A stretch of DNA of 32,807 nucleotides from Lachnospiraceae bacterium (GTDB lineage: Bacteria; Bacillota; Clostridia; Lachnospirales; Lachnospiraceae): assembly GCA_017428265.1 (NCBI GenBank), contig JAFRRD010000003.1, forward strand, positions 1-32,807, written 5' to 3'. The notes beneath the pieces were generated by a model, which searched no databases, had not been told where the DNA came from, and saw only the letters and a list, made by a program, of their open reading frames with translations. Numbering within the stretch: the first letter of the stretch is position 1; the number at the start of each line of letters is the position of its first letter. The translations under genes were made by a program, and so were the position numbers. Below, in pieces: positions 5,675 through 32,807 of this stretch.

Positions 5675-5931
5675 TGAAAAGATCCGCGCGCCTCCGTTCG
5701 AAACAAACAGCGGCTGCCGCGGCGCCAGGCACCCTTACGGCACCCAGAGAGGCTGTTTAGTGCTGCTTCGTCCCCGACCTGACACGGTTCGCAGTTCTCT
5801 GTCGCGTAAGACCAGACGCCGTAACCCGGCACATCCGCCGCCTGTCCCTCCGGGAGGCATCACCCCTGCATCGCTTCAGGTACAAGGCACGCTGCGGCCC
5901 CGGCTGCGCGGAAAGGTGAAATCTTGGTTAC
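5675..5931 (-). ncRNA. ffs: Signal recognition particle RNA, large (Alu-containing) bacterial type
   Basis: The minus strand carries the S-domain signature GTGTCAGGTCGGGGACGAAG followed by CAGC, near 5757-5788, with the returning strand GGTGCCGTAAGGGTGCCTGG at about 5727-5746. At the 5' side there is an Alu-like segment, TGCCTTGTACCTGAAGCG (about 5872-5889), and GGGTGATGCCTCC. Terminal pairing AAGAT...CCGCGC with GCGCGGATCTT closes the molecule. It is about 260 nt long, framed by a consensus promoter and a strong terminator. The RNA scaffolds Ffh for cotranslational targeting. The exact ends are estimates from promoter position and pairing. Confidence 0.9.
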
Positions 5932-29788: not shown

Positions 29789-30058
29789 GTAATCTCGTTC
29801 GGCCCGGTTACATACCCCGAAAGTCAAGTCTGCAATATACGCTCAAACCAAAATCATGCTTGTTAATGAAAACTTACTTAGAGCAACGTTTTCATATCGT
29901 TTTTTCTTCACTTTTTTAGGAGAAACCCGTGCGCTTTCTGCCTGAAAACATAGGTTTTGCAACGTTTTTAAAATGTGCTTGCTCAAATGCGTTATTCACC
30001 GCTTGACCAGGTATTTATGATAAGGGTCTTCCCCGTATCATTTAATGTTCCTGCGGAA
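29789..30058. other. AT-rich gap
   Basis: No gene seen. GCAACGTTTT occurs twice in direct orientation (29883-29892 and 29959-29968). It separates a plus-strand hypothetical from a minus-strand regulator, so it should hold both transcript ends, but no clear terminator was found. Confidence 0.5.
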
Positions 30059-30655
30059 TTACTCTGTTTCTTCCGCACTGTGTCCGATGAGCTCGTTCCG
30101 GCGCTTCAGGCGCTCTTCCGGGGTCAGATCCTCCGGCTCTTTATCCGGAAGCTTTATTCCGGCGTAGTAGGCCAGTTCCTGGTCGAACCACCGGTCGAAG
30201 TAGGCCTGATCGGTCCAGTAGGTCTCGACCCGTTCCCTTTCCTCCGCGAACCTCTCCAGGAAGAGGCACAAATCCGCGTTGTGCTCGGCTGTCTGGTCGT
30301 TCCCGTCGAAGGTGAGAGAGCAGGTCCACCCTTCCACATTCGGAGGCCGCTTCACATCGATATTGAATCGGATGCCGGCCTTCTTGTTAAGTTCGTTCAG
30401 GGCTTCCAGTACATCGGCGAAGGATTCCAGACGGATTTCCTGCCGCTTATAGCCCATCAGCTCCGCGGAAGAAACATGTAAGATCTTTGCAAGTTCATTT
30501 ATGGTAGCGATGGATGGCTCGATCTCTCCGCTTTCATATTTCTGGATCGTGCGGAGCGTCTTATTCAGATGCTGTCCCAGTACCGTCTGGCTCATCCCGG
30601 CTGCTTTCCGGGCGTCCCTGATCCTGGTTCCTATTCCCGAGGGGATCGTATTCAT
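30059..30655 (-). CDS. XRE-family transcriptional regulator
   Basis: 198 aa. Residues 7-62 form a classic Cro/C1 HTH: GTRIRDARKAAGMSQTVLGQHLNKTLRTIQKYESGEIEPSIATINELAKIL split over the domain. The rest is an acidic domain of unknown type (FADVLEALNELNKKAGIRFNID, AYFDRWFDQELAYYAGIKLPD). It ends in a charged tail (TPEERLKRRNELIGHSAEETE). SD GGAGGTG precedes the ATG. It is transcribed away from the ATPase gene at 30872, with a palindrome between the two promoters, so it may control both. Looks like an island- or prophage-type repressor. Confidence 0.85.
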   Translation of the reverse strand: MNTIPSGIGTRIRDARKAAGMSQTVLGQHLNKTLRTIQKYESGEIEPSIATINELAKILHVSSAELMGYKRQEIRLESFADVLEALNELNKKAGIRFNIDVKRPPNVEGWTCSLTFDGNDQTAEHNADLCLFLERFAEERERVETYWTDQAYFDRWFDQELAYYAGIKLPDKEPEDLTPEERLKRRNELIGHSAEETE

Positions 30656-30676
30656 GCTTTTTCACCTCCGGATAGT

Positions 30677-30705
30677 ATTGTAACACATAGCCGTGAGAAT
30701 TGCAA
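30677..30705 (-). promoter_or_regulatory. Promoter of XRE regulator (198 aa)
   Basis: Minus-strand TTGCAA (30700-30705), 17 nt, TACAAT (30677-30682). Confidence 0.7.
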
Positions 30706-30712
30706 TAGCGTA

Positions 30713-30733
30713 ATGCGAAATAATTATTCGCAT
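30713..30733. promoter_or_regulatory. Palindrome between divergent promoters
   Basis: ATGCGAA (30713-30719) and TTCGCAT (30727-30733), 7-nt AT-rich centre, just upstream of the -35 of the XRE gene. Candidate operator for that regulator. Confidence 0.55.
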
Positions 30734-30802
30734 ACGGTGGCAGCAAGATGTCAGGTACATGCAGCAAATCGACAAAGGCAGACTATTAAGATCAGACAGA
30801 CC

Positions 30803-30831
30803 TTGACAGACTTGAAAAATAAGTTTAAAAT
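30803..30831 (+). promoter_or_regulatory. Promoter of AAA+/DUF4143 gene
   Basis: TTGACA (30803-30808), 17 nt, TAAAAT (30826-30831). The -10 lies inside the palindromic element at 30822-30853. Confidence 0.75.
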
Positions 30832-30853
30832 GAAGTTGGCTTCAGATTAAACT
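30822..30853. repeat. Imperfect palindrome (upstream copy) over ATPase promoter
   Basis: 32 nt: AGTTTAA (30822-30828) pairs with TTAAACT (30847-30853), and ATGAAG with CTTCA(G), around a TTGG centre. It aligns without gaps to the palindrome after the gene, with 27 of 32 bases the same by eye. Confidence 0.75.
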
Positions 30854-30871
30854 AAATAACGAGGTATCATT

Positions 30872-32098
30872 ATGGCATATATCCATCGTTCTCTGGAAAG
30901 AAAATTTCTTAAAATGAGCAGTGCCTTTAAGGCAGTCATGGTGACCGGAGCCAGACAGGTCGGTAAATCTACGATGCTGAAATATCTGGCTCAGGATACC
31001 GGCCGCACTTATGTTTCCCTGGATGATGCGGATATCAGGGGGCTGGCAGAAAGTGATCCGAAACTCTTCTTTCAGATGTATCAGCCTCCTATCCTTATAG
31101 ATGAAGCGCAGAAAGCACCGGCACTCTTTGAGCAGATCAAGATCCTCTGTGATGAAAGTGATGAACGGGGGCGGTTTTGGCTGACCGGTTCCCAGAGCAG
31201 GAAACTGATGAAGCAGGCCGGAGATTCCCTGGCAGGCCGGATCGGCATCCTAAAACTGTTCAGTCTGTCAGCGAAAGAACTTGAAGGAAGACCGGATGAT
31301 ATACCTGAGGACTATACCCTCTCTTCGCTGCTTGTAAGAAGCCGGAACTATCCGGAGAACAATATTCAGGATGTTTATACCCGCATTTGGGAAGGCGGCA
31401 TGCCGGATATGATATCAATGGATGCCGAGCTTCGCCGTGAATATTGGAATTCTTATATTGATTCCTATCTTATGCGGGATGCCGTGGATGACAACGGCAT
31501 TCAGGATACAGAAGGATTCCGAAAGCTGCTAAGGGCCTGTGCAGCGTTTACCGGAGAGCTGATCAACTATAATGATCTGGGAAACGCCGCAGGTGTTTCC
31601 GGTGCGACGGCAAAAGAATGGGTCAAAATTCTCCAGACGATGGGAATCATTTTCCTGTTGGAGCCCTACTTCAATAATGAACTGAAGCGCATGATCAAAA
31701 CACCGAAACTGTATTTCTGTGATACCGGGCTTTGTGCGTTCCTGTCTTCCTGGACCAGCCGTGACGTACTGATGAACGGAGCGGCATCCGGCCATTTCCT
31801 TGAGAACTATGTTGTTTCAGAGATGCTCCGCAACTCATATTACGGAGAGAAGAAAGTGAATCTGAATTTTTACCGGGATACGAATCAAAAAGAGATCGAC
31901 CTGGTCATGGAAACAGACGGGCAGCTCCATCCCTTTGAGATCAAACGTGCGGCATCACCGGATAAAAAGGTCATTAAAACTTTTTCCTTACTCGAAAAAA
32001 GCGGAAAAGACATCGGAGCAGGAGGCATTATTTGCATGGCTGCAAAGCCGTTCCCGATCGATGCGGAGAACACCATGATCCCTGTCAATTTGCTGTAA
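30872..32098 (+). CDS. AAA+ ATPase with DUF4143 and nuclease-like C-terminus
   Basis: 408 aa. Walker A is GARQVGKST (26-34), Walker B is ILIDEAQ (74-80) and the sensor-1 strand is FWLTGSQ (102-108), all of the AAA_14 type. A winged-helix-like region follows (YNDLGNAAGVSGATAKEWVKILQTMGIIFLLEPYF). The C-terminal DUF4143 part keeps a PD-(D/E)XK-like set: Glu in GHFLENYV, Asp in KEIDLVM, and the FEIK motif near residue 356. The family is widespread and poorly understood; members are often mobile or accessory. The RBS is weak (GAGG). It sits alone between two related palindromes and divergent from an XRE regulator. Complete, with no frameshift. Confidence 0.92.
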   Translation: MAYIHRSLERKFLKMSSAFKAVMVTGARQVGKSTMLKYLAQDTGRTYVSLDDADIRGLAESDPKLFFQMYQPPILIDEAQKAPALFEQIKILCDESDERGRFWLTGSQSRKLMKQAGDSLAGRIGILKLFSLSAKELEGRPDDIPEDYTLSSLLVRSRNYPENNIQDVYTRIWEGGMPDMISMDAELRREYWNSYIDSYLMRDAVDDNGIQDTEGFRKLLRACAAFTGELINYNDLGNAAGVSGATAKEWVKILQTMGIIFLLEPYFNNELKRMIKTPKLYFCDTGLCAFLSSWTSRDVLMNGAASGHFLENYVVSEMLRNSYYGEKKVNLNFYRDTNQKEIDLVMETDGQLHPFEIKRAASPDKKVIKTFSLLEKSGKDIGAGGIICMAAKPFPIDAENTMIPVNLL

Positions 32099-32130
32099 GA
32101 GATAACTCCCGATAATCATAACTAACCGAC

Positions 32131-32160
32131 TATGTCCGCAGGCTGAAGCTTGCGGACATA
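32131..32160. terminator. Long perfect hairpin after the ATPase gene
   Basis: TATGTCCGCA (32131-32140) and TGCGGACATA (32151-32160). The inner bases extend the stem to a TGAA tetraloop, about 13 pairs in all. No clear T-run follows (TTAATATT), so termination is uncertain. Confidence 0.55.
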
Positions 32161-32166
32161 TTAATA

Positions 32167-32204
32167 TTCAGTTTAATATGAAGTATACTTCATATTAAAC
32201 TGAA
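32167..32204. repeat. Perfect 38-bp palindrome (downstream copy)
   Basis: The half-site TTCAGTTTAATATGAAGTA (32167-32185) is followed immediately by its exact reverse complement (32186-32204), with no loop. Positions 32170-32201 align with the upstream element at 30822-30853. Confidence 0.95.
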
Positions 32205-32500
32205 ACGAGGCGACGACCTGGTGCATATAAGGACGGCTCGGTGAGAACCACGGAGGGGCAGAAGGACCCATGGATCCGGTAAGCTGCCGGACATCTGATG
32301 ATTTCCCGCATAGATTGCATCTCCGGGGGCGTCAGGGACAAATACGGAAAGATCATATCGGGCCTAAAATGTTGGACCGGCGGCAGAAACAATAGAGGCT
32401 GCCGTTGAATTGGGAAACAGAGTGATACTGAAACAGTATGCGCTTTGAAAAATCATATAATGGAAAACCTGAATTAACACGGCAAACCGATATGCAAATA
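32205..32500. other. Gap with weak coding remnants
   Basis: One plus frame (32199-32408) is open apart from a TAA at 32280-32282. It reads AYKDGSVRTTEGQKDPWIR, stop, then AAGHLMISRIDCISGG. It has no start signal and no recognised family. It may be a decayed gene, or chance. Confidence 0.3.
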
Positions 32501-32614: not shown

Positions 32615-32807
32615 TTATGTGCTCGCGTTTTCATTCAGGATCCGCATGAACTCTTCACCGGTAATCGTTTCATGTTCATACAGATACGAAGCTAGTTCAT
32701 CCAACTTACCGCGATTGTCCTTTAGAATGGCCAGTGCTTTTTCGTGCTGCTTCCGTACCAGTTCGACAACCTGTGCATCAATTTTGCTTTGTGTTTCAGC
32801 GGAGCAG
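32615..32807 (-). CDS. ftsH: ATP-dependent zinc metalloprotease FtsH, C-terminal end (cut by window edge)
   Basis: Only the last 63 codons are inside the window. They read CSAETQSKIDAQVVELVRKQ, then AILKDNRGKLDELASYLYEH and ETITGEEFMRILNEN. This matches the FtsH C-terminal helices, where family members commonly read S.ETQ..ID.EV......Y..A..IL...R..LD.LA..LLE.ETI.GEEF. The ATPase and HExxH protease domains would lie beyond the edge. It could be a second FtsH copy in the accessory region; that cannot be judged here. Confidence 0.8.
   Translation of the reverse strand, partial: CSAETQSKIDAQVVELVRKQHEKALAILKDNRGKLDELASYLYEHETITGEEFMRILNENAST

Follow-up and report, generated by a model that had tools for sequence, protein, structure and literature searches.

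The gene family designated PDC-S01, which we take to be the same as COG1373, is a phage-defence candidate that was reportedly defined in a preprint by Payne and others in 2024. In the literature cited in this study, all of which was available to us as excerpts, the family has been described as an ATPase joined to a PD-(D/E)XK domain that, with 29,494 bacterial and 9,986 archaeal systems, is the fourth most common prokaryotic defence, in a context in which validation is still pending for most such candidates (PMC12988326), and as the individual locus found most often in rumen genomes (PMC13356809); the excerpts of these two papers name neither a trigger nor a target nor a mode of action for it. 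It has further been reported that in Thermus an AAA_14-DUF4143 gene is among those whose expression is changed by plasmid DNA (PMC4406477), and the ATPase SSO1545 has been grouped with DNA-binding relatives (PMC4599002). In this study, we analysed a PDC-S01 gene of a Lachnospiraceae bacterium that lies between two related long palindromes, P1 before it and P2 behind it, in a stretch of 32,807 bp (the window, which is the entire contig C15 of a 2.16-Mb draft genome that is 95% complete; Table 1). We suggest, with a probability of roughly 60%, that P1 is an operator for self-repression of the ATPase and that P2 is a second copy of this operator, most likely the leader of a lost gene.

Both palindromes named in a preliminary description of this DNA are real. 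P1 reads AGTTTAAAATGAAGTTGGCTTCAGATTAAACT and has arms of 14 nt in which 12 of 14 positions pair, a score that none of 100 shuffles matched, and P2, read directly, is a perfect palindrome of 19+19 nt. A hand count of P1 against positions 32170-32201 of P2 gave 27 of 32 identical positions, in agreement with the earlier figure. The placement of one palindrome over the -10 of the gene and of the other just past its end was likewise borne out, as the -10 box (30826-30831) lies inside the left arm of P1, and P2 begins 69 nt past the ATPase stop codon (32098), behind a terminator-like stem-loop. The two sites are beyond chance and are not a genome-wide repeat. The preliminary description had proposed a search for the half-site, reasoning that its wide occurrence without the gene would speak against a special role; a 15-nt half-site with up to 2 mismatches has 7 matches in the genome, the best four of which correspond to both arms of P1 and both arms of P2, and each of the remaining three has 2 mismatches. 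A degenerate pattern of the whole motif was matched with zero mismatches in 1 of 299 family genomes, namely the window's own, and with up to 3 mismatches in 2 of 392 order genomes, where it occurs three times: as P1, as P2 and at a site in genome G566 that lies 17 nt before the start of an ATPase 92.6% identical to that of the window. The reversed control pattern had a match in 1 of the 392 genomes.

Homologues were taken from 100 family genomes, 24 of which had a match at E 1e-40, and from one species-genome scan (30 loci, with labels that include Lachnospiraceae, Oscillospiraceae and two Spirochaetes). The scored set comprised 53 loci, related and not independent, that had a usable start and 80 nt of upstream sequence; L018, L023, L029 and L031 (partial or with an unclear start), two matches without a locus, and L073, L075 and L076 were excluded. 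An inverted repeat with a shuffle p of at most 0.05 was found in 33 of the 53, and in every one of these its centre lies 20-50 nt ahead of the start codon. Among 106 other genes of the species-scan loci, which served as controls, 8 were significant and 3 had the repeat at that position (Fisher 3e-13). The sequence of the repeat varies from one homologue to the next, for example TTAGGATAAAATAAAGTATACTTTATATTTTCTTAA in L013, TTTCGGCTAAAATA..ATTAGCCGAAA in L032 and CCTATATTTTGTTATATA..AACAAAATATAGG in L035, and perfect repeats stand before the start codon on Moraxella bovis plasmids (arms of 21 nt) and on the Treponema succinifaciens plasmid pTRESU01 (arms of 19 nt). Searches of viral contigs gave nothing with the protein query, one contig by alignment and nothing with the motif; on an IMG/VR contig (L179, 5001-6227), a PDC-S01 gene with, by eye, its own promoter palindrome has a NACHT-like gene and likely DNA methyltransferase genes (also by eye) as neighbours. 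On the Emticicia plasmid pEMTOL02 (L111, 2998-4164), a PDC-S01-like gene lies in the opposite direction between the L-ribulose-5-phosphate epimerase and araA genes.

An arm-swap test, in which upstream regions were cut at a fixed place and the left halves were joined to the right halves of other loci, lowered the mean dyad score of 17 representatives of less than 72% identity from 8.59 to 5.71 (sd 0.33), with 0 of 200 swaps reaching the true pairing, and that of all 50 loci tested from 8.84 to 6.16 (0 of 60). As swapped arms do not attain the true pairing, changes in one arm have been compensated in the other; the arms co-vary, and the dyad is under selection. Of the 48 loci whose promoter score is at least 9, 35 have the -10 box within the repeat, 32 of them, by our own count, in the left arm. 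Such an arm is left untranscribed, and this speaks for a DNA site bound by a symmetric protein rather than for an RNA hairpin. We consider it very improbable that P1 and P2 act as RNA hairpins in the manner of an attenuator or terminator. While P2 and the preceding stem-loop fold very stably together (z -9.3), and in one clade (L063, L064, L068, L069 and L072), where the -10 box stands just before the repeat, the left arm may be partly transcribed, the left arm of P1 contains the -10 box and so precedes the transcription start, and P2 has no T-run and comes after another terminator-like stem. The operator sequence also diverges with the protein: among 38 operators, operator identity climbs with protein identity (Spearman 0.80), from a mean of 45% at 35-45% protein identity to 77% at 75-90%, against a shuffled baseline of 41%, although this co-divergence alone is no proof of binding, since the operator is physically linked to the gene and the pairs are not independent.

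The ATPase has the Pfam domains AAA_14 and DUF4143, and the PADLOC profile PDLC04790 (PDC-S01) matches it over residues 2-408 of 408 (E 1.4e-108, 361 bits); the joining of an ATPase to a PD-(D/E)XK domain that marks this family is found in the window protein. It had no match in NCBIfam up to E 0.001 and none by sequence among solved structures up to E 0.1. Judged from its sequence and a predicted model, the protein has an AAA+ domain, a helix-turn-helix and a likely PD-(D/E)XK nuclease, the site of which is likely to be intact. We infer that the binder of the dyad is the ATPase itself, to which its helix-turn-helix and the co-divergence point indirectly. A dimer or higher oligomer would bind the dyad via its winged helix and, by covering the -10 box, keep the expression of its own gene repressed. 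Through the ATPase it would sense a trigger, presumably phage DNA or some other invader, which would both free the protein from the operator and activate the nuclease; P2 may still bind the ATPase. That the dyad is instead bound by a regulator of the host or of an element, such as the neighbouring XRE-family protein, appears quite unlikely to us. The XRE gene does adjoin a P2-like palindrome in a second genome, G053, as well (its protein being 96% identical); however, an XRE relative and such an ATPase are no more than 1.5 kb apart at 2 of 14 places, the XRE gene is preceded by an inverted repeat of another sequence (30713-30733), and the palindrome sequence tracks the ATPase across different hosts. 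The XRE protein is thus unlikely as a general binder, and as a general partner it was rejected on the first two of these grounds.

P2 looks like the leftover leader, comprising operator, ribosome-binding site and start, of a second gene of the same family that has been deleted. It has no good -35 box. The sequence behind it, GAAACGAGGCGACGACCTGGTGCATATAAG, is similar to the leader and start that close homologues have; when this tail was aligned to 15 homologue leaders, its mean score was reached by 4 of 2000 shuffles and by 19 of 3000 random contig windows, and at 32232 the sequence enters a partial pemK-type RNA that it has in common with G053. When each locus was scanned with its own operator, a search that misses a second copy where the best repeat was not the operator, 2 of the 53 loci yielded a downstream copy, namely the window and L010 of G053 (3 of the 53 had less than 200 nt of downstream sequence); a row for L054 at -1816 looks like chance. 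Doubled operators about 50-80 bp apart occur upstream of the start in 6 of the 53 (L009, L011, L017, L026, L064 and L072). Bracketing by two palindromes, as the preliminary description had it, is therefore not the general design. Its suggestion of operators is upheld for P1, in view of a palindrome at the same place in 33 of 53 homologues against 8 significant among 106 controls and of the co-varying arms, but not for a paired arrangement. An auxiliary operator that still works is the main rival explanation for P2, and it is possible, with clearly lower odds than the leftover leader, that P1 and P2 are paired operators, both in use, that loop the gene. P2 is perfectly symmetric and has the 27 positions in common with P1, the downstream copy of L010, a 66% homologue, is identical to that gene's own operator at 26 of 34 positions, and by eye a related palindrome lies downstream on the Treponema plasmid. 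However, a downstream copy was seen in only those two of the 53 loci, the tail after P2 resembles a gene leader, and the Treponema copy, which is followed by a T-run, looks like a terminator.

Several observations weigh against the operator reading. Residues 261-290 of the ATPase, which follow the helix-turn-helix, were modelled with low confidence (pLDDT 31-44), and the AAA+ cores of unrelated proteins score equally high. Since operator and gene are linked, shared descent alone would yield their co-divergence. A dyad over the gene's own core promoter with compensatory change, as expected for an autoregulatory operator, is found in the subfamily as a whole, but 20 of the 53 homologues have no repeat that is significant singly by our score; several of these (e.g. 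L019, L021 and L034) have a wider-gapped repeat by eye, whereas L022 seems to have none. For the tail after P2, 153 of 2000 shuffles and 123 of 3000 windows attained the best single score, so that the likeness is modest. Finally, in a wide sample of DUF4143 genes across the phylum, in which start codons were picked by rule (a few are probably wrong) and gaps of more than 8 nt were unscored, 1 of 22 was significant (L166), and its repeat lies farther upstream than usual; L045 (the window's gene), L163, L167-L170, L177 and L178 (partial or below the cut-off) and four matches without a locus were excluded. On these sequence comparisons the promoter palindrome is a trait of the subfamily whose proteins mostly begin M-x-Y-I-x-R, because it is so rare among the wider DUF4143 genes. 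The preliminary description had taken homologous genes without a flanking palindrome as the observation that would undo its idea; this is what, by our score, 21 of the 22 wider genes show, whereas 33 of the 53 near homologues show the opposite.

It had also been suggested that the palindromes are the ends of a mobile unit. Judged from the DNA that loci share, the gene does move alone, as a unit from promoter to stop codon. In 43 of 46 locus pairs with ATPase DNA at least 78% identical, the common DNA is limited to a stretch that begins between 0 and -113 relative to the start codon and reaches no further than 21 nt beyond the stop codon (the exceptions being L053/L054, L104/L105 and L013/L014), and 6 of 9 pairs with at least 85% DNA identity share only about -52..-107 to -7..+21. 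The limits of the moved unit are thus approximately the -35 box and the stop codon and not the two palindromes, and given in addition the rarity of the downstream copy we rejected a palindrome-bounded unit as the general case. Repeated transfer alone would trim shared DNA to the working unit, and the short unit is therefore no proof of a dedicated mechanism. In G309, a genome of the window's genus, an ATPase relative lies between an exonuclease-like gene and a TraX gene. The counterparts of these flanks are 1-3 nt apart in four relatives compared base by base (G301, G302, G303 and G310), while in G300 and G304 (L150 and L149) there is no ATPase match below E 0.05 and the interval holds other DNA. 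No target-site duplication was seen by eye between the filled site and the four empty ones, which are too diverged for a short duplication to show. In G309, positions 5633-5811 of L078 (G309:C24), immediately ahead of the intact gene, hold what is left of another PDC-S01 gene, a stub with its start (MYIQRVIEKCFESG); the same four relatives are empty at this site. Remnants of family genes numbered 1 in 59 kb near the ATPase gene and 1 in 123 kb far from it; remnants beside the gene were rejected as a rule, the cases being one weak match in L035 and the one in G309. Among 30 matched records of Moraxella plasmids, none was an empty one.

A comparison with G053 bears on the same question. G053 has in common with the window the XRE gene together with the region upstream of it (91% DNA identity) and the pemK piece (83%), but between these flanks it carries another ATPase (66% protein identity), which points the other way with respect to them. 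The two PDC-S01 regions with shared flanks span 7116-10085 of L101 (G053:C2) and 30015-32377 of the window. Near the G053 locus, not far from the gene for ribosomal protein S9, lies an integrase C-terminus, which suggests a decayed integrated element. The junctions between the two arrangements are 8 to approximately 650 bp from the palindromes, which leaves a simple flip between palindromes unsupported, and inversion of one ancestral unit was rejected. As the ATPases (about 70% DNA identity) are more diverged than the flanks (83-91%) and the junctions lie off the palindromes, two separate arrivals of an ATPase gene in one interval appear likelier.

These data are also relevant to the idea that the palindrome is a recognition or cleavage site of the ATPase's own nuclease, serving as a mark of self DNA or cut to move or copy the gene in the manner of a homing endonuclease. 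The probably intact PD-(D/E)XK site, the solitary movement of the gene in the most similar pairs, its clean insertion between genes that are 1-3 nt apart in relatives, and the one interval that holds different, oppositely oriented ATPases in two genomes are all in line with it. Nevertheless, we regard this as rather unlikely: in the window and in most homologues the palindrome overlaps the -10 box, as an operator would, and does not lie at the ends of the moved unit, cutting by the gene's own nuclease would break the host chromosome, the window/G053 junctions lie off the palindromes, and remnants are not clearly commoner near the gene than farther off. A combined view, to which we give still less credence, is that a self-spreading single-gene element uses the palindrome as its operator and also to recognize itself. 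Its AAA+ nuclease would then repress itself at the dyad, recognize identical or related dyads of rival copies or of invaders, and by cutting at them favour its own insertion or the loss of rivals. If true, this would explain solitary operators like P2 and gene stubs like that of G309, and one of the commonest defence candidates would be a homing-like selfish gene.

Table 1. Features around the PDC-S01 gene, in positions of the window
Feature	Position	Strand	Basis or remark
Separate inverted repeat ATGCGAA-N7-TTCGCAT before the XRE gene, unlike P1 and P2; perhaps the XRE protein's own site	30713..30733	.	
XRE-family regulator, neighbouring gene, also present in G053	30059..30655	-	
Promoter of the ATPase gene, sigma-70 type, TTGACA-17-TAAAAT	30803..30831	+	11 of 12 matches; layout recurs in many homologues
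P1, imperfect palindrome of 32 bp that covers the -10 box; proposed autoregulatory operator	30822..30853	.	Score and comparison of homologues
AAA_14-DUF4143 ATPase (PDC-S01), 408 aa: AAA+ domain, helix-turn-helix, likely PD-(D/E)XK nuclease	30872..32098	+	Sequence and model
Terminator-like stem-loop of the ATPase gene	32131..32160	+	Between the gene and P2
P2, perfect palindrome of 38 bp; proposed second copy of the operator	32167..32204	.	Read directly; motif search
Short tail after P2, like a PDC-S01 ribosome-binding site and start; possible remnant of a lost gene	32205..32231	+	Leader alignment

Other features of the window and its genome may be noted briefly. The partial pemK-type RNA (32232-32273) scores 26.2 bits, below the gathering score of 34.8, and its 5' half seems to be missing; complete RNAs of this type (60-63 bits) occur at four places in 3 of 16 genomes of the genus, each before what by eye is an apparent ParA gene. 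The stretch that follows (32270-32445) shifts frame and reads like a small broken gene, and pieces of it matched no Pfam family. At 32615-32806 on the minus strand lies, by eye, the tail of an FtsH-like gene that is cut by the contig end and is similar to the tail of an FtsH-like gene in G238, and a bacterial large signal recognition particle RNA lies at 5684-5911, also on the minus strand (101.7 bits). The same genome has a second DUF4143 gene (G000:C45:18459-18929, within a 441-aa frame), which has no significant upstream palindrome.

The co-varying promoter dyad provides a candidate DNA ligand for each PDC-S01 protein. Binding, repression, trigger-dependent release and cleavage thereby become accessible to direct tests, and the arms of the dyad may represent a specificity code that can be read against the winged helix. 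Self-repression would thus offer a handle on the function of a very common and unstudied defence-candidate gene. Literature searches on the family names, the defining preprint lying outside them, brought up no title or beginning of an abstract on an operator of this kind, none of the excerpts cited here mentions a promoter palindrome of PDC-S01, and a literature search on defence combined with autorepression gave no matching paper. The locus had been put forward as an undescribed system; the family is known, as PDC-S01, but its co-varying operator appears to be undescribed in the literature searched. The window's gene resembles other PDC-S01 genes in its profile match, in joining an ATPase to a PD-(D/E)XK domain and in being a single gene, and differs in its palindrome, as the excerpt of PMC12988326 names no operator or promoter palindrome and the trait is absent from nearly all of the wider DUF4143 genes. 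IniR of mycobacteria is alike in having an AAA+ domain that has been likened to SSO1545 and in binding a promoter, as the ATPase is proposed to do here; it differs in that it has MalT-like and C-terminal DNA-binding domains and induces another operon, and a nuclease domain is unmentioned in the excerpt (PMC5760070). The archaeal ATPases SSO1545 and PAB2304 (PDB 2fna and 2qen) are also among the closest known systems. Finally, the controllers of toxin-antitoxin and restriction-modification systems are self-repressing, and the repressor is usually a small antitoxin or a C-protein. The PDC-S01 locus shares with them a dyad over the promoter of its own defence gene, but differs in that here the effector itself would be the repressor.
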